Assembly (NCBI RefSeq): GCF_947486615.1
Contig: NZ_CANKUD010000001.1
Coordinates: 310,001 to 374,000 of the forward strand
Source: an uncultured Modestobacter sp.
Lineage (GTDB): Bacteria; Actinomycetota; Actinomycetes; Mycobacteriales; Geodermatophilaceae
Length of the DNA stretch: 64,000 bases
Reading direction: 5' to 3'
Made by a program: the position numbers and the translations under genes. Shown piece after piece: positions 9,882-64,000 of the stretch; within the stretch, counting starts at the first letter, position 1; the number at the start of each line of letters is the position of its first letter. Below the pieces are notes generated by a model that was not told the DNA's origin, ran no database searches, and saw nothing but the letters and a program-made list of their open reading frames with translations.

Positions 9882-9968
9882 GGCGTTCCTCTCGGTCGGG
9901 CGGCTCGTCCGGCCTCGTCCCGGGGCCCGCCGCGAGCTCGCGAGTGGTGGGGAGGACGAGGCCCTTCT

Positions 9969-11150
9969 TCAGGTGGGGATGTCGGTCCAGGTGGAGCGGG
10001 CGGCCGCGCTGCGTTCGACGGCTTCGAGCACCCGCTGCACCTGCAGGCCGTCGGCGAAGGACGGCGTGGGCTGCGAGCCCTCGGCCAGCGCGGTGACCAG
10101 GTCGACCACCTGGTGGGTGAAGCCGTGCTCGTAGCCCAGCCCGTGACCGGCCGGCCACCAGGCGCCGACGTAGGGGTGCTCGGGCTCGGTGACCACGATC
10201 CGGCGGAAGCCCGCGGTCGCGGCCGGCTCCGCGCCGTCGAAGAAGTGCAGGACGTTCATGTCCTCGAAGTCGAAGGCGAGACTGCCGGCCGAGCCGTTCA
10301 CCTCGATCCGGATGGCGTTCTTGCGGCCCAGGGCGAAGCGGGTCGCCTCGAACGTGGCCAGCGCGCCGCCGGTGAACCGGCCGAGGAAGACCGCGGCGTC
10401 GTCCACGGTGACCTCGCCCATCCCCTCTCCCCCGACGCCCCCGAGCTTCCCGCTGCTGGCCGGCAGCGGGCGCTTGCGCACGAAGGTCTCCAGCACGGCA
10501 CTGACGCCGGTGATCCGCTGGCCGGTGATGAACTGGGTGAGGTCGACGATGTGCGCGCCGATGTCGCCCAGCGCGCCGGAGCCGGCCTTCTCCTTCTGCA
10601 GCCGCCAGGACATCGGGGCGGCGGGGTCGGCGATCCAGTCCTGCAGGTACTGGGCCCGCACGTGCCGGATCTCCCCCAGCCGGCCGTCGGCGACCAGCCG
10701 GGCGGCGAGGGCGATCGCCGGCACCCGGCGGTAGGTGAAGCCGACCATCGCGCGGACGCCGGAGGCCGCCGCCCGCTCGGCGGCGGCGGCCATCGCCTCG
10801 GCCTCGGCCACCGTGTTGGCCAGCGGCTTCTCGCACAGCACGTGCTTGCCGGCCGCCAGGGCCGCGATCGCCATCTCGGCGTGGGTGTCGCCGGGGCTGC
10901 AGATGTCGACCAGGTCGACGTCGTCGCGCTCGAGGAGCCGGTGCCAGTCGGTCTCGGACGACGACCAGCCGAGCCTGCCGGCAGCGTCGGTGACCCGGGC
11001 GGCATCCCGGCCGGCGAGCACGGTCAGCTCGGGGACGAGCGGGAGGTCGAAGAAGCGGGGCGCGGTGCGCCACGCGTGGGAGTGGGCGGCGCCCATGAAG
11101 GCGTAGCCGATGAGGCCGACGCGCAGAGTCGGCCGGGACGGGCTGGTCAT
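9969..11150 (-). CDS. Gfo/Idh/MocA-family NAD(P)-dependent sugar dehydrogenase
   Basis: A 393-aa oxidoreductase with an N-terminal Rossmann domain (RVGLIGYAFMGAAHSHAW, DLVDICSPGDTHAEMA, HVLCEKPLANT, where the EKP lysine is the usual catalytic residue) and a C-terminal alpha/beta substrate domain (YLQDWIADPAAPMSWR, GSGALGDIGAHIVDL). The GDIGxHxxD motif supplies the catalytic Asp/His of this family. The YLQDW and DIGAH stretches resemble levoglucosan- and inositol-dehydrogenase relatives, but the family is too promiscuous to fix the sugar. It lies 66 bp downstream of the binding-protein gene and upstream of the TIM-barrel isomerase. ATG follows GGAG. Confidence 0.88.
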   Translation of the reverse strand: MTSPSRPTLRVGLIGYAFMGAAHSHAWRTAPRFFDLPLVPELTVLAGRDAARVTDAAGRLGWSSSETDWHRLLERDDVDLVDICSPGDTHAEMAIAALAAGKHVLCEKPLANTVAEAEAMAAAAERAAASGVRAMVGFTYRRVPAIALAARLVADGRLGEIRHVRAQYLQDWIADPAAPMSWRLQKEKAGSGALGDIGAHIVDLTQFITGQRITGVSAVLETFVRKRPLPASSGKLGGVGGEGMGEVTVDDAAVFLGRFTGGALATFEATRFALGRKNAIRIEVNGSAGSLAFDFEDMNVLHFFDGAEPAATAGFRRIVVTEPEHPYVGAWWPAGHGLGYEHGFTHQVVDLVTALAEGSQPTPSFADGLQVQRVLEAVERSAAARSTWTDIPT

Positions 11151-50221: not shown

Positions 50222-51228
50222 CGCCGGCGGAGCAGTGTCGCGGCACCGGCGAGGGCTGCGGCGCCGAGCGCGGCGACCGCGCCGTGGTGGCGGCCGGCCC
50301 AGAGCTGCGGGTCCCGGGTCCACGCCTGGTCGTCGAAGCGGCCGTGGGCCCCGAAGTCCTGCCCGTCGGGTCCGTCGGCCGGCTCCCAGAGGTCGACCGG
50401 GTCGTCGGGGCGGGTTTCCCGGCTGGTGAGCTGCCCCTGCACCCCGCTGCGGGCGAGGTACCAGTCCATGAACTGCGGCCAGACCTTCTCGCCCAGGATC
50501 GTGTAGACGGTGGGGGTGCCCACGTACCAGGCCCGGCGTCGCGGGTGCTCGGCAGCGTGCACCATCGCCCCGGCGACGACCTCCGGCTGGTAGATCGGCG
50601 CGACCGGCTGCGGGCGGGTGGGCAGCCGGTTGAGCACCCAGTCGAACTGCGGGGTGTTCACCCCGGGTGCGTTGACCATCGTGACGTGCACGCTGCTGCC
50701 CTCGTCCCGCAGCTCGGTGAGCAGCGACTCGGTGAACCCCTTGATGGCGTGCTTGGCCCCGCAGTACACGCTCTGCAGCGGGATGCCGCGGTAGGCCAGT
50801 GCCGACCCGGTCTGCACGACGACCCCGCGGTCACGGGGCTTCATCCGGGTGAGCGCCGACCGGGTGCCGTTGACGAAGCCGAGGTAGGTGACGGCGGTGG
50901 CCCGCTCGTACTCCGCCGGGGTGATGTCGGTGAACCGGGCGAACACCGTGGTGAAGGCGCAGTTGCACCACACGTCGATCGGCCCGAGCTCGGCCTCCAC
51001 CCGGTCGGCGGCGGCGTCCACGGCGGCGGCGTCGGCGACGTCCACCGGCACCACGAGCGGGGTGCCCCCGGCCGCCCGTACCTCCTCGGCGGCGGCGGCG
51101 AGCCCCTTCTCGCCCCGGGCCAGCAGCGCGACCCGATCGCCCCGCCGGGCGAAGGCGACCGCGGTGGCGCGGCCGATCCCCGCGCTCGCCCCGGTCACGA
51201 CGACGACCGAGCTCGTCCGGACGCTCAT
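50218..51228 (-). CDS. Short-chain dehydrogenase/reductase with C-terminal extension
   Basis: A 336-aa classical SDR. The cofactor motif is VVVTGASAGIGRATAVAFARRG, the catalytic Ser/Tyr/Lys are seen in VVQTGSALAYRGIPLQSVYCGAKHAIKGF, and the core ends near residue 255. The extra 80 residues end in a hydrophobic helix (GAVAALGAAALAGAATLLRRR), which could anchor the enzyme to the membrane. The residue at the NNAG site is WCNCAF instead of NNAG, a change sometimes seen in SDR relatives of actinobacteria. It overlaps the PoxB-like gene (ATGA). Confidence 0.88.
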   Translation of the reverse strand: MSVRTSSVVVVTGASAGIGRATAVAFARRGDRVALLARGEKGLAAAAEEVRAAGGTPLVVPVDVADAAAVDAAADRVEAELGPIDVWCNCAFTTVFARFTDITPAEYERATAVTYLGFVNGTRSALTRMKPRDRGVVVQTGSALAYRGIPLQSVYCGAKHAIKGFTESLLTELRDEGSSVHVTMVNAPGVNTPQFDWVLNRLPTRPQPVAPIYQPEVVAGAMVHAAEHPRRRAWYVGTPTVYTILGEKVWPQFMDWYLARSGVQGQLTSRETRPDDPVDLWEPADGPDGQDFGAHGRFDDQAWTRDPQLWAGRHHGAVAALGAAALAGAATLLRRR

Positions 51229-56904: not shown

Positions 56905-58113
56905 ATGAAGGCAGTGGTGTGGCACGGCGTCGGGGACATCCGGCTCGACGACGTCCCCGACCCCCAGATCCAGGACCCCACGGACGCGATCATCGAGGTG
57001 ACCGCCAGCGGCATCTGCGGCACCGACCTGCACTTCGTCCGCGGCACGATGCCCGGCATGGTCGAGGGCACGATCCTCGGCCACGAGGCCGTCGGCGTGG
57101 TGCGCGAGACCGGCTCCGGGGTGCGCAACCTGCGCCCCGGTGACCGGGTGGTCATCCCCTCGACCATCGGCTGCGGGTACTGCTCCTACTGCCGCGCCGG
57201 GTACTACGCCCAGTGCGACAACGCCAACCCCAACGGCGGCGCGGCCGGCACCTGCTTCTTCGGCGGCCCGCAGACCACCGGCCCGGTGAACGGCCTGCAG
57301 GCGCAGTACGCCCGCATCCCGTACGCCAACGTCGGCCCGGTGTGGCTGCCCGAGGAGGTCAGCGACGACGCGGCGATCCTGCTGTCGGACATCTACCCCA
57401 CCGCCTGGTTCGGCGCGCGGCTGGCCGACGTCTCCGACGGCGACACCGTGCTGGTGCTCGGCGCCGGCCCGGTGGGCCTGTTCGCGGTGACCAGCGCCTT
57501 CCAGCAGGGCGCCGGCCGCGTGCTGGTCGTCGACGGCATCGCCAGCCGGCTGGACCAGGCGCGGGCCCGCGGTGCCGAGGCGATCGACTTCAACGCCGAG
57601 GACCCGGTCGAGGTCGTCAAGGAGCTCACCGGCGGGATCGGCGTGGACCGGGTGATCGACGCCGTCGGCGTGGACGCCCAGCGCCCGAAGTCCGGCCCGG
57701 CGGCGGAGCAGGCCGCGCAGCAGGCGGAGCAGTTCGACGCCGAGCGTTCCCAGGTGGCCCCGGAGCAGAACCCGCACGGGCAGACCTACGTCGCCGGGGA
57801 CGCACCCAGCCAGTCGCTGGAGTGGGCCGTGCAGGCCGTCGCCAAGGCAGGCAGCATCGGCGTGATCGGTGTCTACCCGCCGCAGATGACCGCGTTCCCG
57901 ACCGGCGCGGCGATGAACAAGAACCTGAGCATCAAGATGGGCAACTGCAACCACCGGCGGTACATCCCGCACCTGCTCGACCTGGTGCGCACCGGTGCGA
58001 TCGACCCCTCGACGGTGCTCACCCAGGTCGAGGACATGCCGACGGTGCTGGCGGCCTACGAGACCTTCGACCAGCGGCAGAGCGGCTGGACCAAGGCCGT
58101 CATCGCGCCCTGA
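56905..58113 (+). CDS. Zinc alcohol dehydrogenase paralogue with an inserted Gln-rich segment
   Basis: A 402-aa zinc MDR. Catalytic site in GICGTDLHFVRG and ILGHEAVGVVRETG, structural zinc cysteines in IGCGYCSYCRAGYYAQCDNANPNGG, cofactor site in VLVLGAGPVGLFAVTSAF. An extra stretch around residues 255-300 (SGPAAEQAAQQAEQFDAERS and following) is polar, Gln/Glu-rich and not in the first copy. IKMGNCNHRRYIPHLLDLV at the end keeps the family pattern. Substrate unknown; a small aldehyde or alcohol is likely. ATG follows AGGAGGAG. Confidence 0.9.
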   Translation: MKAVVWHGVGDIRLDDVPDPQIQDPTDAIIEVTASGICGTDLHFVRGTMPGMVEGTILGHEAVGVVRETGSGVRNLRPGDRVVIPSTIGCGYCSYCRAGYYAQCDNANPNGGAAGTCFFGGPQTTGPVNGLQAQYARIPYANVGPVWLPEEVSDDAAILLSDIYPTAWFGARLADVSDGDTVLVLGAGPVGLFAVTSAFQQGAGRVLVVDGIASRLDQARARGAEAIDFNAEDPVEVVKELTGGIGVDRVIDAVGVDAQRPKSGPAAEQAAQQAEQFDAERSQVAPEQNPHGQTYVAGDAPSQSLEWAVQAVAKAGSIGVIGVYPPQMTAFPTGAAMNKNLSIKMGNCNHRRYIPHLLDLVRTGAIDPSTVLTQVEDMPTVLAAYETFDQRQSGWTKAVIAP

Positions 58114-58165: not shown

Positions 58166-58537
58166 TCAGCCGTCCGCGGCCGGACGACGGGTGAGCTCGA
58201 CCAGGCTGCGCAGGCAGTGCTCGCGCAGCGGCTCGGGGAAGCCGTCGGCCAGCCGGTAGTAGACGACCCGGCCCTCCTTGCGGCTGACCACGAAGCCCGC
58301 GGTGCGCAGCAGCCGGAGCGCGTAGCCGACGGCGTCCTCGGTGGCGTCGAGGGCCAGGGCGAGGTCGCCGACGCAGAGCTCCTCGACCAGGTCGAGGGCG
58401 TACAGCACCCGGGCCCGCGTGGGGTCGGCGAGCAGGCTGAGCGCGGCGGTGAGCTGACCGGCGTCGTCCCGGCTGGGCACCCGGGCCCGGGCGGCGGCGA
58501 CCCGGGCCGGGTCCACGGGGTGGGTGTGATCGGACAC
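58166..58537 (-). CDS. ArsR/SmtB-family metal- or redox-responsive repressor
   Basis: A 123-aa winged-helix regulator. The core is LTAALSLLADPTRARVLYALDLVEELCVGDLALALDATEDAVGYALRLLRTAGFVVSRKEGRVVYYRLADG (about 29-99). Candidate sensing residues are Cys55 in ELCVGDL, His107-Cys108 in REHCLRSL, and His4/His6 in SDHTHP. It is divergent from the complex-I-like operon and a 22-bp palindrome lies 31 bp upstream of its GTG. Repression of both genes, relieved by metal or oxidation, is a reasonable hypothesis. The cognate signal cannot be read from sequence. Confidence 0.88.
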   Translation of the reverse strand: MSDHTHPVDPARVAAARARVPSRDDAGQLTAALSLLADPTRARVLYALDLVEELCVGDLALALDATEDAVGYALRLLRTAGFVVSRKEGRVVYYRLADGFPEPLREHCLRSLVELTRRPAADG

Positions 58538-58640: not shown

Positions 58641-58991
58641 GTGACGGCCCACCTCAGCCTCGCGCTCATGCTCGCCGTGGCGGTGGGCGGGGTGCTCGCC
58701 GCGTACCTGGTGCACCGCCGGACGTCGGTGGCAGTGCGACCGCTCCCCACGCTGCCGTTCCTGTCCGGCTGGCGGCCCGCCGAGCACGCGCTCTCCCGGT
58801 TCGAGGCGCGGTGGTACCCGCTCACCCTGCTCTTCCTCGCCTTCGACGTGGAGATGCTCTACATGTACCCGTGGGCGACGGTGGTCGCCCAGATCGGCGT
58901 CTCGGCGGTGGTCGAGATGTTCGTCTTCCTCGGCGTCCTGATGGCCGGGGTGCTGTGGGCCTGGCGCGAGGGGGCCCTGGAATGGGTCTGA
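58641..58991 (+). CDS. NuoA-like membrane subunit
   Basis: A 116-aa protein with three membrane helices, matching complex I subunit A in layout. The second and third helices (LTLLFLAFDVEMLYMYPWATVVAQ, VEMFVFLGVLMAGVLWAWREGALEWV) keep the conserved acidic residue in FDVE and the PWA turn. The loop motif YECG of ordinary NuoA, whose Cys and Glu line the quinone site, is replaced by FLSG (in LPFLSGWRP). GTG follows GGAGG. First gene of the rightward operon. Confidence 0.88.
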   Translation: MTAHLSLALMLAVAVGGVLAAYLVHRRTSVAVRPLPTLPFLSGWRPAEHALSRFEARWYPLTLLFLAFDVEMLYMYPWATVVAQIGVSAVVEMFVFLGVLMAGVLWAWREGALEWV

Positions 58992-60253
58992 TCGGGCGGC
59001 TGGCCGCGCGCCGCACCGCCGTGCTGGTCGCCGAGGTGCCGGGCTGGGCACGCACCCGGTGCGCCGTGGAGCAGCAGGTGCGGTCGCGGGGCTGGCGCCT
59101 GGCCGACTCCCCCGCCGACGCCGACCTGCTCGTCGTCTGCGGCGACCCCGGACCCCGGTTCGCCGCCGCCCTCGACCTGGTCTGGGCGCAACTGCCCGGC
59201 CCGCGCGCCCGCGCGCAGGTGCTCGACCCGGCCGGCGTGGCAGCGGCGCTGGACGACGCCGCCGCCCAGCTCGCCGACGAGGCCGCCCAGCGCCACGACG
59301 CCGGTGCCCGCCCGGACGAGCCTCCGCAGGGCGTGCCGGCCACCGACACCTCGATCGGCGCGGACGCCGCCGACGCGCCTGACGACGACGCGCCTGACGA
59401 CGACGCGCCCGACGACGACGCGCCCGACGACGACGCGGACGGGGCGGCCCCGCCGGCTTGGGACGACCCGCACCCCGGCTCGACCGATCAGGACGAGACC
59501 GACCAGGACGACGGGGAGGCCCCCGGGGCTGACGAGGCCACGGGCGACAGCGACCACGACGGCGACACGGACGACGACAGCATGGGCGACGGCGACATGA
59601 GCCACGGCGACATGGGCGACGGCGACATGGGCGGCATGGACATGCCGATGCCCGGTGGCATCCCGCTGGCCGGCGGCGCCGGTGACGAGGAGCTCCCCGA
59701 CCCCGACGGCCTCGACCTGGACGTGCTCCACCTGCCGCTCGGCCCGGTGCTCCCCCACTGGCCGGCCGGCCTGCTGCTGCACACCACCGTGCAGGGTGAA
59801 CGCATCGTCGCCGCCCGCGCCGAGGTGCTCGAGCCCGCCGCTGATGCGCCGGCCGGCGGCTCGCTGCACGGCACCCCCGCCGGCCGCTGGGACGCGGTGG
59901 CCACCCTGCTCGCGCTCGCCGGCTGGGCGGACACCGCCGCCGCGGCTGCCCGGCTCCGGGACGCCGCGCTCACCGACGCCGTCCCTGAGCGCGAGTCAGA
60001 GCGGCTGGCCCGCCGGGTGCGCCGCTCCCGGCTGCTGCGCTGGTCGCTGCGCGGGGTCGGCGTGCTGCCGGAGGGTGACGCTGCCGACCGGCTGGCGCAC
60101 TGGCTGGCCGGCACCGCCCACGGGCAGCCGATCACCCTCCAGCAGGTGGCCGACCTGGTGACCGGCCTGGACCTGGCCACCGCCCGGCTGGTGGTGGCCA
60201 GCCTCGACCTGGACACCACCGCTCGCGAGCCGGTCCCGGTGGAGGGGGCGTGA
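58982..60253 (+). CDS. Chimeric protein: degenerate NuoB-like and NuoD-like ends joined by an acidic, Met/His-rich linker
   Basis: A 423-aa protein in the position of NuoB-NuoC-NuoD. Residues 1-90 resemble the NuoB fold (GWARTRCAVEQQV, DADLLVVCGDPGPRFAAALDLVWAQLPGPRARAQVLDP) but lack the cysteines that bind cluster N2; only Cys27 and Cys53 occur. Residues 130-200 are extremely acidic with four APDDD repeats. Residues 200-226 are rich in Met, His, Asp and Gly (GDGDMSHGDMGDGDMGGMDM). Residues 245-285 (DVLHLPLGPVLPHWPAGLLLHTTVQGERIVAARAEV) recall the start of the NuoD 49-kDa subunit, again without its active-site motif. The rest is helical and unrecognised. It overlaps nuoA by 10 bp and nuoH by 4 bp. 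Metal binding by the linker is inference. Confidence 0.75.
   Translation: MGLIGRLAARRTAVLVAEVPGWARTRCAVEQQVRSRGWRLADSPADADLLVVCGDPGPRFAAALDLVWAQLPGPRARAQVLDPAGVAAALDDAAAQLADEAAQRHDAGARPDEPPQGVPATDTSIGADAADAPDDDAPDDDAPDDDAPDDDADGAAPPAWDDPHPGSTDQDETDQDDGEAPGADEATGDSDHDGDTDDDSMGDGDMSHGDMGDGDMGGMDMPMPGGIPLAGGAGDEELPDPDGLDLDVLHLPLGPVLPHWPAGLLLHTTVQGERIVAARAEVLEPAADAPAGGSLHGTPAGRWDAVATLLALAGWADTAAAAARLRDAALTDAVPERESERLARRVRRSRLLRWSLRGVGVLPEGDAADRLAHWLAGTAHGQPITLQQVADLVTGLDLATARLVVASLDLDTTAREPVPVEGA
59375..59434 (+). repeat. 15-bp in-frame tandem repeat encoding APDDD
   Basis: Four copies of a GCGCCYGACGACGAC unit with only silent differences (C/T at one position), inside the chimeric subunit. Silent variation between copies suggests some age. 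Unit number may vary between strains. Confidence 0.9.
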
Positions 60254-61182
60254 CCGTCGTCCAGGTGTCCGCCGGCTGGGTGCCGTTGGCCGCCGCACTG
60301 CTGCTCACCGTGGCCACCGCCGCGGCGGCGCTGGACGGCGTGCTGGCGGCCCGGGCAGGCGGCCGCCCGCTGGGCGAGGGGCTGCTCACCCCGGCCGCGG
60401 AGACCGCCCGGCTGTTCCGGCAGCGCCGGCGGACCACGGTCGCCGCCGACCTGCCGCTGCAGCGGATCGGCGGCGCCGGCCTGCTGACCGCGGCGCTGCT
60501 GATGGTCACCGTCGTCCCGTTCGGCCGGTGGACCGTGGCGGACCTGTCCGTCGGCGTCGTCTGGTTCAACGCCATGGACGTGCTGCTCTGGGCGGCGCTG
60601 TGGCTGGCCGGGTGGGGGCCGAACAGCGTGCACCCGCTGGTCGCCGGGCATCGTTTCCTGGCCCAGGCGCTGTCCTACGAGCTGCCGCTGATGTTCGCCC
60701 TCACCACCCCGGCGGTGGCGGCCGGCAGCCTGCGGCTGGGCGACCTGGTGGCCGCCCAGTCCGGCCTGTGGTTCGTGGTCTGGATGCCGGTCGCCTTCGT
60801 CGTCTTCTGCGCCGGGGTGCTCGCCTTCTCCGCGTGGGGCCCCTTCAGCGCCGCCCTCGGCGGCGGGGCGACCGGTGGGGTGCTGGCCGAGTCGGCCGGG
60901 GTGGACCGGTGGCTGGTCACCGCCGGCCGGTACGCGCTGCTGACCGCCGGGGCGGCCTTCGGCGCGACCGCCTTCCTGGGTGGTGGGCACGGCCCGCTGC
61001 TGCCGGCCTGGCTGTGGGTGCTGGTGAAGACCGCGCTGCTGCTGGCCGTGCTGGTCGCGCTGCGCCGCCGGCTGCCGGTCGTGCGGCCCGAGCGGTTGAC
61101 GGTGCCGGCCTGGCTGGTCGTGCTACCGCTGGTGCTCGTGCAGCTGCTGGTCGTGTCCGTCGTCGTCGTGGTGCGGGGGTGA
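60250..61182 (+). CDS. NuoH-like membrane subunit
   Basis: A 310-aa protein with about eight helices, matching complex I NuoH in order (HRFLAQALSYELPLMFALTTPAVAAG is the conserved SYE helix). The loops that build the quinone chamber are altered. The RRGPN-type motif of loop 1 is absent (ARAGGRPLGEGLLTPAAETARLF) and the acidic EREAELVAGFNTEYSG-type region of loop 3 is replaced by GPFSAALGGGATGGVLAESAG. It is expected to sit at the junction with the chimeric subunit. GTG start overlaps the preceding stop. Confidence 0.85.
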   Translation: MTVVQVSAGWVPLAAALLLTVATAAAALDGVLAARAGGRPLGEGLLTPAAETARLFRQRRRTTVAADLPLQRIGGAGLLTAALLMVTVVPFGRWTVADLSVGVVWFNAMDVLLWAALWLAGWGPNSVHPLVAGHRFLAQALSYELPLMFALTTPAVAAGSLRLGDLVAAQSGLWFVVWMPVAFVVFCAGVLAFSAWGPFSAALGGGATGGVLAESAGVDRWLVTAGRYALLTAGAAFGATAFLGGGHGPLLPAWLWVLVKTALLLAVLVALRRRLPVVRPERLTVPAWLVVLPLVLVQLLVVSVVVVVRG

Positions 61183-61186
61183 GGCA

Positions 61187-61723
61187 GTGCTGAGCGGGAT
61201 CGTCTTCTGGGTGCTGGCGGTGGTGGCGGTCGCCGCCGGGGTCGCCGTCTTCCGGGTCGACTCGATGGCCCGGGCCACCTACGCGCTGGCCGCCTCGTTC
61301 GTCGCCGTCGGCCTGTCGCTGCTGCTGCTGGACCTGCAGTTCCTCGGCGTCATGACGGTGCTGATGATGGTGATGGAGATGGCGATCATGGCCATCTACA
61401 TGATCATGTTCATGGGGATGAACCCCGCGCTCATGCCGATGAGCATGGTGCACGGCAAGCGCCCGGCCCTGCTGATCTCGGTCGGCACCTTCGCGGTGCT
61501 GGCCACCGGTGCGCTCCTCGTTCCCTGGCCCACCCGGCGGGGCGCACCGGCCGCGGACCTGGTCACCTCGCTCGGTGAGGCCGTCATGGAGTCGAAGATG
61601 CTGGTGATGCTGACCGTCTCCCCGGTCCTCTTCGCCACGATCGTCGCCGCCCTGGTGCTCGCGCTGCCGCGCAGCCGCTACGACCGGCTGGGTGCCGACC
61701 TGCGTGGGAGGGCCGACCGGTGA
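61187..61723 (+). CDS. NuoJ-like membrane subunit
   Basis: A 178-aa protein with five membrane helices as in complex I subunit J: GIVFWVLAVVAVAAGVAVFRVDSM, ALAASFVAVGLSLLLLDLQFLGVMTVLMMV, MEMAIMAIYMIMFMGM, LLISVGTFAVLATGALL, and LVMLTVSPVLFATIVAALVLAL. The conserved central motif is present with one acidic residue in VMEMAIM. The Met-rich helix 3 is notable. GTG follows NuoH by 4 bp; the stop overlaps nuoK (GTGA). Confidence 0.85.
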   Translation: MLSGIVFWVLAVVAVAAGVAVFRVDSMARATYALAASFVAVGLSLLLLDLQFLGVMTVLMMVMEMAIMAIYMIMFMGMNPALMPMSMVHGKRPALLISVGTFAVLATGALLVPWPTRRGAPAADLVTSLGEAVMESKMLVMLTVSPVLFATIVAALVLALPRSRYDRLGADLRGRADR

Positions 61724-62022
61724 CGTTGCAGACCGTCCTGCTCGTGGCCGCGGCGCTGTTCAGCATCGGCCTCTACGGCGCCATCTCCCAGCAGGTCGTG
61801 GTGATGGTGATGATGGGCCTGGAGCTGATGCTCAACGGCGTCATCCTGGCCGCCGCCGGCTTCTGGTGGTTCCTCTCCCCCGCCCCCGACGGGCAGGTGC
61901 TGCTGCTGGTCGTCATCACCGCGATGACCGTGGAGATGGCGATGGGCTTCGCCGTGGCCACCCTGCTGCACCGGTCGAAGCAGTCGGACATGACCGACAT
62001 GGCCACGGACCTCGCGCAGTGA
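61720..62022 (+). CDS. NuoK-like membrane subunit
   Basis: A 100-aa three-helix subunit. Both proton-path glutamates are kept, Glu35 in VMMGLELMLNGV and Glu72 in AMTVEMAMGFAVA. The C-terminal tail SDMTDMATDLAQ is short. It is read from GTG overlapping the nuoJ stop. Its intact glutamates suggest the membrane arm still translocates ions. Confidence 0.92.
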   Translation: MTLQTVLLVAAALFSIGLYGAISQQVVVMVMMGLELMLNGVILAAAGFWWFLSPAPDGQVLLLVVITAMTVEMAMGFAVATLLHRSKQSDMTDMATDLAQ

Positions 62023-63950
62023 CCGGCCTGCTCTGGACGGCGGCCGCGCTGCCCGCCGCCGTCGGCGCGCTGCTGTGCGTCCTGGGCCGGCGGGCCGACC
62101 GGGTCGCGCCCGGCGTCGGCGTCGGGACGGCGGCGGTGGTGCTCGCCGTGTCGGTGCTCGTCGCGCTGGACCGACCGGTCACCGAGGTCCCCTTCCTGCC
62201 CGGCGCCGTGTTCGGGCTGGCCGTCGACCCGCTCGCGGCCGTGGTGCTGCCGGCGGTGGCCGCGGTGACCCTGCTGGTGCTGGTCTTCTCCGCCGGCGAC
62301 GTCTCCGGCGCCCGGGCCCGGTTCACCGGGCTGATGCTGCTGTTCGCCGCAGCGGTCGTCGTCACCGTCACGGCCAGCACGCTGCCCGCGCTGCTGTTCG
62401 CCTGGGAGGTGATGGGCGCGACCTCCTATGCGCTGATCGGCTTCCGGTGGCAGCAGGAACACCGGGTCGGCGCCGGGCTGAACGCGTTCCTGACCACCCG
62501 CACCGCCGACCTCGGCCTGTACCTGGCCGCCGGCGCCGCGCTGGCCGGCGGCGCGGGGCTGGCGCTGGACGAGCTCGCGGCGGCCGGCGGGCCGTGGCTG
62601 CACGTTGCCGCGGCCGGGGTGCTCGTCGCCGCGCTGGGCAAGGCCGCGCAGCTTCCGTTCACCGCGTGGCTGTCCGCCGCGATGCAGGGTCCGAGCCCGG
62701 TCAGCGCGCTGCTGCACTCGGCGGCGATGGTGGCGATGGGCGGGTACCTGCTGCTGCGGATGGCACCGCTGCTGGCCGCCACCGGCTGGGCCGCGACGAC
62801 GGCGGCCTGGGTCGGTGCGCTGACCGCGCTGCTGCTCGGCGCGGTGGCCGTCGCCCAGCGCGACCTCAAGCAGCTGCTCGCTGCCTCCACCGCCGCCCAG
62901 CTGGGTTTCGTGGTGCTCGGCGCCGGGGTCGGCTCGGTCGCCGGCGGCACTGCGCACCTGGTCGCGCACGCCTCGACCAAGGCGCTGCTGTTCCTGGTGG
63001 CCGGTGCGTGGCTGAGCGCACTGGGCACCAAGCAGCTGGCCGCGCTGCGCGGTGCCGCCCGGCGCTGGCCGCTGGTCGGGGTCTGCGCCGCGGTCGGTGC
63101 GCTGGCGCTGGCCGGCGTGGTCCCGCTGTCGCTGTGGGCGACCAAGGACGCGGTGCTCGCCGGTGCCCGGCACGAGTCCCTGGCGCTTTACGTCGTCGGG
63201 CTGGCGGGTGCGGCGCTCTCCGCGGCGTACGCGGGCAAGGTGCTCTGGCTGGTCTGGCAGCAGCTGCCCGCCGACCCCGGCTACGACACCGAGGAGCAGG
63301 GCACCCGGCGGGTCGGCGTCCTGGAGCAGGCGCCGCTGGTGGTCCTCGCCGCCGGCGCCGCCGTCCTCGGCCTGCTGGCCCTGCCCCCGGTCGGCGACGC
63401 GCTGCGCCGTCTCCTCGGTGAGAGCGGTGCCGCCAGCCCGGCGGTGTGGGAGATGGCCCTCTCCGCGGCGCTGGCCGTCGCCGGGGTCGCGCTGCTGGCG
63501 TCGGGGCGGGTGCGCGGCCTGTCCTGGGGGCCGCTGGGCCGCTGGCTGTCCGGCTGGCTCGGGCTCCCCCGGCTCACCACCGTGCTCGTCGTCCGGCCGG
63601 TGCTCGGGCTCGCCGAGGGGCTGGCCCGGTTCGACGACGCGGTGCTGGCCCGGGTCGTGCGCGGCGCCGGCCGCGGCGCACTGCGCACGGCCGGGACCGC
63701 CGCCCGGTTCGACGACTCCGTGCTCGACCGCGTGGTCCGCGGCTCGGCCAGCACCGGGGTCCGGCTGGCGAACGCGGCCGGCCGGGCTGACGAGGCCGGG
63801 CCGGACGCCGCCGTCCGGTCGCTGGCCGCGGGCACCCGCCGGCTGGGGGCGCTCGCCCGCCGCACCCAGACCGGCTGGGTGCACCAGTACTACGTCCAGG
63901 CCGCCGTGGTGCTCGCCGCCGCGCTGGCCCTCCTGCTGGCCGTGAGGTGA
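62019..63950 (+). CDS. NuoL-like antiporter subunit with an altered C-terminus
   Basis: A 643-aa Mrp/NuoL-type antiporter. Key residues are kept: Glu130 in WEVMGATSYALIGF, Lys208 in ALGKAAQLPF, His233 in LLHSAAMVAMGG, His317 and Lys321 in AHLVAHASTKALLFLVAGA, and Lys376-Asp377 in WATKDAVL. After helix 14 the last about 160 residues contain two direct copies of a RFDD-VL-RVVRG pattern and a final helix, in place of the long lateral helix typical of NuoL. Translationally coupled to nuoK. Confidence 0.92.
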   Translation: MTGLLWTAAALPAAVGALLCVLGRRADRVAPGVGVGTAAVVLAVSVLVALDRPVTEVPFLPGAVFGLAVDPLAAVVLPAVAAVTLLVLVFSAGDVSGARARFTGLMLLFAAAVVVTVTASTLPALLFAWEVMGATSYALIGFRWQQEHRVGAGLNAFLTTRTADLGLYLAAGAALAGGAGLALDELAAAGGPWLHVAAAGVLVAALGKAAQLPFTAWLSAAMQGPSPVSALLHSAAMVAMGGYLLLRMAPLLAATGWAATTAAWVGALTALLLGAVAVAQRDLKQLLAASTAAQLGFVVLGAGVGSVAGGTAHLVAHASTKALLFLVAGAWLSALGTKQLAALRGAARRWPLVGVCAAVGALALAGVVPLSLWATKDAVLAGARHESLALYVVGLAGAALSAAYAGKVLWLVWQQLPADPGYDTEEQGTRRVGVLEQAPLVVLAAGAAVLGLLALPPVGDALRRLLGESGAASPAVWEMALSAALAVAGVALLASGRVRGLSWGPLGRWLSGWLGLPRLTTVLVVRPVLGLAEGLARFDDAVLARVVRGAGRGALRTAGTAARFDDSVLDRVVRGSASTGVRLANAAGRADEAGPDAAVRSLAAGTRRLGALARRTQTGWVHQYYVQAAVVLAAALALLLAVR

Positions 63951-63954
63951 GCCC

Positions 63955-64000
63955 GTGCTCAGTCTGATCATCTTCCTGCCCCTGGCGGTGGCGGCCGTGC
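63955..64000 (+). CDS. Start of the next operon gene (NuoM-like), truncated by the window
   Basis: A GTG at 63955, 4 bp after the nuoL stop, begins a frame VLSLIIFLPLAVAAV that resembles the first membrane helix of NuoM. Only 46 bp are available. Confidence 0.6.
   Translation, partial: MLSLIIFLPLAVAAV

Follow-up and report, generated by a model that had tools for sequence, protein, structure and literature searches.

The DNA analysed here (the window) is a stretch of 64,000 nucleotides from an uncultured Modestobacter sp. (assembly GCF_947486615.1, contig NZ_CANKUD010000001.1, positions 310,001 to 374,000 of the forward strand). Its 3' end carries most of an operon of eight genes, A2-X-H2-J2-K2-L2-M2-N2, that runs on the forward strand from 58641 to 66865, and neighbouring genes in the operon overlap or are separated by a gap of at most 13 bases. 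Positions beyond the window were read on an extended stretch, L002 (window position = L002 position + 57000). The gene set is of a kind labelled as a respiratory enzyme. Because the electron-handling parts are lost and copper-type sites are found in the family, the operon probably encodes a machine, not recognised so far, that is powered by protons and assists the cell in dealing with copper.

The first gene, A2 (58641..58991), has a GTG start and encodes a NuoA-like protein (PF00507, E 2.6e-24). It is followed by the gene for the 423-amino acid (aa) protein X (58982..60253), and by genes for the NuoH-like H2 (60250..61182; PF00146, E 4.4e-39), the Met-rich NuoJ-like J2 (61187..61723; PF00499, E 8.4e-11), the NuoK-like K2 (61720..62022; PF00420, E 7.4e-14) and the NuoL-like antiporter subunit L2 (62019..63950; PF00361, E 6.8e-45, over the cut-off). 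M2 (63955..65442, L002 6955-8442) and N2 (65456..66865, L002 8456-9865) continue the operon past the window edge at position 64000; only 63955..64000 of M2 lies in the window and N2 lies outside it. All seven Nuo-type membrane subunits (A, H, J, K, L, M and N) pass the Pfam cut-offs, with PF00361 shared by L, M and N. An initial annotation, made from the window alone, had placed A, a chimeric gene, H, J, K, L and possibly M in this order, and gene calls bear out both order and coordinates. It had also listed subunits C, E, F, G and I as missing. Gene calls on this contig were taken up to contig position 387000, and among the genes called after N2 up to that point there is no NuoB, C, D, E, F, G or I. 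The possibility that the missing subunits lie just past the window edge was rejected, as position 64000 is followed not by NuoE, F, G or I genes but by M2 and N2, and then by a convergent formate dehydrogenase gene and COX1. The canonical nuo genes (A, B, D, F, G, H, L and others), a search for which had been proposed, are grouped on another contig, C2, of the same genome.

X of the window has no Pfam match and no NCBIfam match, and was identified as a NuoB-linker-NuoD fusion from a profile, basal relatives, an AlphaFold2 model and Foldseek. A profile (A4) of 54 X proteins, comprising that of the window and 53 of 57 readable relatives (L058, L063, L068 and L108 were left out, as were 11 loci earlier), found NuoB chains in the PDB with a best E of 6.5e-7. 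With a profile built from only the C-terminal part (A3), NuoD chains made up 25 of 30 matches at E 0.28-1.4; the top three matches were to XPA (E 0.07-0.18), presumably by chance, and two more were to JAC1. Given these E values, sequence ties X of the window's own clade only weakly to NuoD. The link is plain from the basal relatives. In five basal X proteins, chosen out of about 16, the Pfam family for NuoD (PF00346) was over the cut-off in all five and that for NuoB (PF01058) matched weakly, below the cut-off, in four, and in three of them a heavy-metal-binding domain (PF19335, E 1e-11 to 1e-13) lies between the NuoB and NuoD parts. The basal actinobacterial X proteins of L191, L193 and L194 have a fuller NuoD-like part plus the heavy-metal-binding domain, and could be intermediate forms able to date the fusion.

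In the AlphaFold2 model of the window X, two domains are predicted with confidence, and residues ~111-240 between them are of low confidence. Foldseek matches to this model had E 2.2e-3 or worse, with none at or below 1e-3; among the 50 matches listed, the first 39 fit NuoB-type subunits by chain name and length, and numbers 40, 45 and 48 fit NuoD or NuoCD. Residues ~12-110 (59015..59311) form a degenerate NuoB-like domain without the iron-sulfur (Fe-S) Cys-Cys motif, residues ~111-241 (59312..59704) the Asp/Met/His-rich linker (DGDMSHGDMGDGDMGGMDMPM), in which the predicted local distance difference test (pLDDT) score is about 50, and residues 242-423 (59705..60250) a NuoD-like domain that has lost the quinone-site GPQHP. 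These losses extend through the family: the Cys-Cys motif is present in 14/14 canonical NuoB and 1/54 X, and GPQHP in 15/15 canonical NuoD and 0/54 X. The window X has only two Cys residues, C27 and C53, and no CxxC. The linker reaches at least 6 His plus Met per 30 aa in 49/54 X, as compared with 4-5 in canonical NuoB and 5-7 in canonical NuoD, and DHxxM occurs in 27/54 X versus 0/29 canonical B and D proteins. X is therefore a fusion of NuoB and NuoD around a metal-binding-type linker, with no C part, and the chimera expected to fill the B-C-D space does so for B and D but not for C. At 59375-59434 the linker contains four near-identical 15-bp units (APDDD), and its length is very variable among relatives.

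Residues of the membrane subunits were compared between the family and 11 canonical operons of the same class (10 for A). For the counts, 16 near-duplicate loci and odd-length sequences were dropped (for example, 65/77 H and 68/74 L sequences were used), and L179, L181, L185-L187 and L196 were dropped from the basal set. A2 has lost the ECG loop of the canonical protein and keeps D69 and E71 in 100% of the family. A His has been gained in the loop (99% of the family; His49 in the window), and a second His, present in 97%, is Glu55 in the window. H2 has lost the RxGPN and acidic quinone loops; Glu144 (100%) and Glu214 (95%) are conserved in the family, and the window copy keeps both together with K260. 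In L2, Glu130, Lys208, His233, His317, Lys321 and Lys376 are 100% conserved (n=68), and the set of key charged residues is complete in the window copy. In M2, the Glu of transmembrane helix (TM) 5 is replaced by Asp, and Lys221, Lys252, His309, His344 and Glu403 are 100% conserved (n=74). Lys249 and Lys389 of N2 are conserved in 100%, and Glu35 and Glu72 of K2 in 100% and 97%, respectively. Thus, the redox and quinone motifs are lost and the proton machinery is largely kept. The losses from NuoA and NuoH and the residues retained in NuoK and NuoL had all been read correctly from the window alone. The Lys and Glu proton residues of the antiporter subunits are retained in L2 and, with Glu changed to Asp in TM5, in M2, but N2 has lost its TM5 Glu. 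The broader proposal of an ion-translocating assembly derived from complex I and free of NADH and quinone chemistry is upheld by the absence of Cys-Cys, GPQHP and the NuoH acidic loop and by the invariant proton residues of L2.

The initial interpretation thus holds in part. Four features had not been foreseen, namely the build of X (B plus D with a metal-binding-type linker and without C), the loss of the TM5 Glu from N2, a set of methionines in A, J and K, and the copper neighbours that are frequent in the family but missing at the window itself. Met makes up 9.6% of J, 9.6% of K and 5.0% of A in the family, as compared with 2.8, 5.1 and 2.7% in the canonical proteins, whereas the other subunits show no such rise (H, 2.4 versus 2.5%; L, 1.6 versus 3.8%; M, 2.1 versus 2.5%; N, 1.6 versus 2.5%). 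A general Met bias was rejected, as L2, M2, N2 and H2 are not enriched. Columns were taken as family-specific and conserved when a residue occurred in at least 95% of the family and at most 10% of the canonical proteins. Met accounts for 14/30 such columns in J, 4/14 in K and 1/14 in A (19/58 together) and for 5/153 in H, L, M and N (p 2.6e-8 for the difference); in the canonical proteins it accounts for 21/703 conserved columns. The family-specific Met residues are M29, M31, M69 and M73 in K2 and M72 in A2, where M75 is also invariant but is Met in 20% of the canonical proteins.

Conserved methionines of J2 form a ladder over residues 60-89 (61364..61453), i.e. TM3 and the TM3-4 loop (MMxxEMxxMxxxMxxxM...MxMxH). 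Among 22 diverse J2 proteins that span 34-91% identity to that of the window, 20 columns are invariant and ten of these are Met (M27, M60, M61, M65, M68, M72, M76, M85, M87 and M138); E64 and H89 are invariant as well. The residues M60, M61, M65, M68, M72, M76, M85, M87 and H89 are found in 0% of the 11 canonical NuoJ, and the Met residues in the gate region of J TM3 occupy positions of canonical Tyr and Val. In an AlphaFold2 model of J2 (mean pLDDT 74.7), residues 51-75 form one helix, the third, and M61, M65, M68, M72 and M76 would fall on one stripe if this helix were extended (R 0.88 for these five chosen residues). The E-channel of complex I is described as consisting of A, J and K plus part of ND1, with J TM3 as the gate and the J TM3-4 loop communicating with the A TM1-2 loop (PMC10212512). 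The J2 proteins of three basal relatives end in a His/Gly-rich tail (L190 10440-11165, L183 8470-9075 and L192 10659-11315) that is missing from the window J2 and is a further metal-binding-type feature.

X was found in 16/59 genomes searched (the genome of the window included), belonging to 4/34 genera. When genomes were scanned in full with the H2 alignment, an H2 relative was found to be encoded at 403 places (tblastn E 1e-3 or better). The best 80 of these were kept, and by title all 80 are from Actinomycetota. The called-gene order A-X-H-J-K-L-M-N is invariant in 80/80 kept loci, and therefore the arrangement is far beyond chance. The full eight-gene set was called in at least 63/80, a lower bound because the home-made gene caller, which also makes gene starts in the relatives approximate, misses genes in loci of lower G+C content. 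No NuoF or NuoG homologue was detected in the 80 kept loci with a reference set of canonical A, B, D, F, G, H and L (NuoE, C and I are not part of this set), and the only canonical label was one spurious low-complexity match to D. In 18 further Actinomycetota places, 12 have all eight genes with the fusion second, J was not called in one, contig ends truncate four, and the last, L196, holds an ordinary cluster of the complex I type. J2 was also matched in 14/72,556 plasmid records, all from actinobacterial genera, over 49-56% of its length, and in 13 of the 14 the match is annotated as NADH-quinone oxidoreductase subunit J. The three plasmid regions opened (Arthrobacter FB24, Pseudonocardia and Gordonia) contain the whole cluster in the same order, with X annotated as a hypothetical protein. 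All 80 kept loci and all 14 plasmids thus come from Actinomycetota, and no separate search of other phyla was made.

The 825 neighbour genes of 86 loci were clustered by sequence and the families were named afterwards. The four most recurrent families are DUF305, CopA/CopZ-type, ArsR and CsoR-like. Pfam agrees on the representatives of the DUF305, ATPase, CsoR-like, multicopper oxidase, BNR, DUF326, DsbD-type and thioredoxin-like families, and gave no match for the representative of the tenth neighbour family. The copper set was chosen after the recurrent families had been seen; the controls, 40 hand-picked (non-random) 20-kb regions in 18 genomes with about twice as many genes each, were scored with the same families. 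DUF305 is near 31/86 clusters and 0/40 controls, the P-type ATPase/HMA family (which takes in small, CopZ-like HMA proteins) near 24/86 and 0/40, ArsR near 17/86 and 1/40, CsoR-like near 14/86 and 0/40, multicopper oxidase near 11/86 and 0/40, and DUF326 near 9/86 and 0/40. Any copper-type family (those just listed except ArsR, plus a BNR-repeat family and TM-DUF305) is near 50/86 clusters and 0/40 controls, and the stricter count of DUF305 or a CPC-type ATPase alone gives 35/86 clusters. A copper-linked copy occurs in 26/34 genus labels, five labels being metagenome-assembled genomes without a genus name. Eight full-length ATPases lie within 250 bp of a cluster, all upstream, on the same strand and of CPC type. 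In plasmid 1 of Arthrobacter sp. FB24, a strain for which a plasmid-loss derivative (D11) has been described (PMC2751784), the cluster comes after DUF305, F510_1955 and multicopper oxidase genes, and in the Pseudonocardia plasmid a heavy-metal ATPase, an HMA protein, a metal-sensitive regulator and DUF305 are beside it. A link to copper is well supported for the family, though not at the window itself.

Taken together, the largely kept proton machinery, the loss of redox and quinone motifs, the soft-metal ligands at the junction of the quinone module and the membrane arm, and the copper neighbours make a transporter of Cu(I) driven by the proton gradient the simplest reading. We are thus inclined to regard the operon as encoding a complex I relative of eight subunits that has no redox function and handles Cu(I), probably as an outward Cu(I)/H+ pump. 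Where the initial annotation had suggested something other than NADH or quinone, copper would be the more specific reading, and the proton gradient would probably do the driving. Copper as the ion, its transport, the outward direction and the coupling to protons are inferred; the transported metal would be Cu(I) or Ag(I), and the window copy would presumably act like its copper-linked relatives. The outward direction is proposed because the neighbourhoods are of the resistance type. In the model, X would occupy the NuoB/NuoD place on the cytoplasmic mouth of H2 and collect Cu(I) with its His/Met linker. Cu(I) would then be handed to the Met/His-rich TM3-4 loop of J2 and the loop of A2, and travel along the ladder of Met residues that A2, J2 and K2 form in what was once the E-channel, with proton influx via L2, M2 and N2 powering the movement. 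Such a complex would operate beside CopA. Whether a Cu(I) pump driven by the proton motive force arose from complex I in this way, the quinone module becoming a copper collector and the E-channel a Met-lined copper path, in a class unrelated to P1B ATPases and resistance-nodulation-division (RND) pumps, we judge to be about an even call.

Several observations weigh against this interpretation. Copper families are absent from the 64 kb of the window and from the annotated 13 kb after N2, and the close relatives of the window copy are mostly unlinked, with 1/6 named Modestobacter loci copper-linked. Four more divergent same-genus copies (L032, L035, L036 and L037; ~55% identical) are all copper-linked, and the close copy L031 is unlinked. 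In the family, 36/86 clusters have no copper-type gene in the flank examined, as is also the case for the Gordonia plasmid region, one of the three opened. Of the 15 long neighbouring ATPases, 12 are CPC-type, two are CPH and one is neither, and neither the heavy-metal-binding domain nor ArsR is specific to copper. The linker of the window X is modest, with 8 His plus Met per 30 aa and an Asp-rich repeat, and 5/54 X proteins fall under 6. H2 has no Met enrichment, and when all eight TM3-region Met residues of J2 are considered their one-sidedness on the helix is not significant (p 0.17). Glu144 of H2 is kept in just 25% of the basal copies, and in N2 the TM5 Glu is Leu in 97% and position 219 is Lys in 73% and Glu in 27%.

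The main rival to the transporter is a copper-gated proton valve, i.e. a channel or pump in which Cu bound to X and the Met set switches proton flow with no copper crossing the membrane, as a defence of pH or membrane potential under copper stress. The same copper-type sites and copper neighbours speak for it, and the region that turned to Met is the gate region of J TM3, so that Cu could act as a gate. A ladder that spans TM3, the loop, A2 and K2 nevertheless exceeds the needs of a gate, and efflux and storage-type genes are among the neighbours; we hold the valve to be unlikely, at perhaps one chance in several. A Cu(I) importer that is driven by the proton motive force and supplies cuproenzymes would account for the multicopper oxidases near some clusters, but linkage to CopA-, CsoR-, DUF305- and DUF326-type genes and occurrence on plasmids suggest resistance, which leaves import quite improbable.

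The same multicopper oxidases, and the position of the copper-type sites of the X linker near the place of cluster N2 and quinone, would also suit a redox machine that uses Cu(I)/Cu(II) instead of Fe-S clusters and quinone. As GPQHP is lost in 54/54 X, the acidic residues of the H quinone loop are lost, and no oxidoreductase family is near more than 11/86 clusters, this is rated as very unlikely, a little below import. The presence of canonical nuo genes in the genome is what would be expected if the operon were a duplicate of complex I in the course of decay, or a backup dehydrogenase of the ordinary kind that shares subunits with the canonical operon. Such an origin is the least plausible and scarcely compatible with the identical called-gene order in the 80 kept loci and the three plasmid regions, with J2 Met residues that are invariant across 34-91% identity, with the invariant Lys and Glu of L2, or with an X that has no Fe-S Cys-Cys motif.

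The proposed Cu(I)/H+ pump differs from the systems to which it can be compared. Respiratory complex I (NDH-1) has homologues of all seven membrane subunits in the same order, and the key Lys and Glu residues of L and K and most of those of M are kept; however, the operon has no E, F, G, C or I, B and D are fused without Fe-S Cys-Cys and quinone motifs, the A and H loops are lost, and A, J and K are Met-rich. Ehr complexes and group 4 membrane-bound hydrogenases are complex-I-like; Ehr is not known to have the NiFe ligands, and the D-type subunit of group 4 [NiFe] hydrogenases has two CxxC NiFe motifs. The window X has no CxxC, unlike the group 4 enzymes, and the family differs from both in that B and D are joined in X through a metal-binding-type linker and in the A-H-J-K-L-M-N composition, which is that of complex I. 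Mrp antiporters include the subunits MrpE, F and G. The operon contains no MrpE/F/G-type gene and no DabA-type (carbonic-anhydrase-like) gene of DAB/MpsAB, its genes being those for the seven Nuo-type subunits plus X. Mrp is a non-redox use of complex-I antiporter-type subunits (PMC7419157) and in DAB2 an antiporter-type subunit is coupled to a non-redox job (PMC13144422); in contrast to Mrp and DAB/DAB2, the whole membrane arm including NuoH is retained here. The RND protein CusA is described as moving Cu(I) along a methionine ladder (PMC7558416). This Cu(I)/Ag(I) exporter is proton-driven and uses a Met ladder for Cu(I), as proposed here, but belongs to an unrelated protein family, and the ladder proposed here is in NuoJ, K and A homologues. 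Islands with the P1B-type ATPase CopA, CopZ, CsoR, DUF305 and multicopper oxidase share their neighbourhoods with many of the clusters; their members are ATP-driven or soluble, and the complex would be an additional component that has no explanation among them.

How the quinone site of complex I is coupled to the distant antiporters via the E-channel is a central open question. If the pump is real, it would be a natural relative in which a metal site replaces quinone chemistry on the same membrane arm, and in which the coupling of ions can be viewed apart from redox. Cells would, moreover, have a new way of handling copper, and many genes of Actinomycetota annotated as NADH dehydrogenase, some of them plasmid-borne, would be something else. 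An earlier description of a copper-linked complex I relative was not found in the open full-text literature, a scope that leaves out preprints and most subscription papers. Copper is mentioned 0 times in the main text of a study on genome mining of complex I (PMC12361115), and a paper that describes a copper module in which CopZ and CopA are combined with a metal-binding protein (PMC6305408) does not contain 'nuo'.

Upstream of A2 and divergent from the operon is a gene for an ArsR/SmtB-type metalloregulator (58166..58516, minus strand; NCBIfam HTH_metalloreg, E 5.4e-19, and PF01022, both over the cut-off). Genes of the ArsR family number 18 near the 17 relatives that have them, and 13 of the 18 are closely similar to the window's regulator, which is ~67-84% identical to the ArsR proteins beside the copper-linked clusters L033, L034, L036, L079 and L087. 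Directly 3' of N2 there is a short tandem repeat with units of ~15 bp of the type GGTGACCCCACCGGC (about 66886-66983, L002 about 9886-9983). A formate-hydrogenlyase-like unit with the neighbouring formate dehydrogenase was rejected, as that gene is convergent and an FdhA homologue is near 3/80 relatives. The fdhA gene has an in-frame TAG at L002 14861-14863 on the minus strand (~71861-71863, beyond the window) within R-I-TAG-H-S-S-T; the position resembles the Cys or selenocysteine site that serves as the molybdenum ligand. UAG-encoded selenocysteine is known from formate dehydrogenase of Geodermatophilaceae. The alcohol dehydrogenase next door was likewise rejected as a partner (near 11/86 clusters versus 3/40 controls, p 0.29). 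The window genes at 50284-51192 and 56905-58113 also adjoin the cluster in relatives; an alcohol dehydrogenase is ~92% identical in L049 and L050 and a short-chain-dehydrogenase-like gene ~91% identical in L049, and the wider neighbourhood is therefore partly syntenic in Modestobacter.

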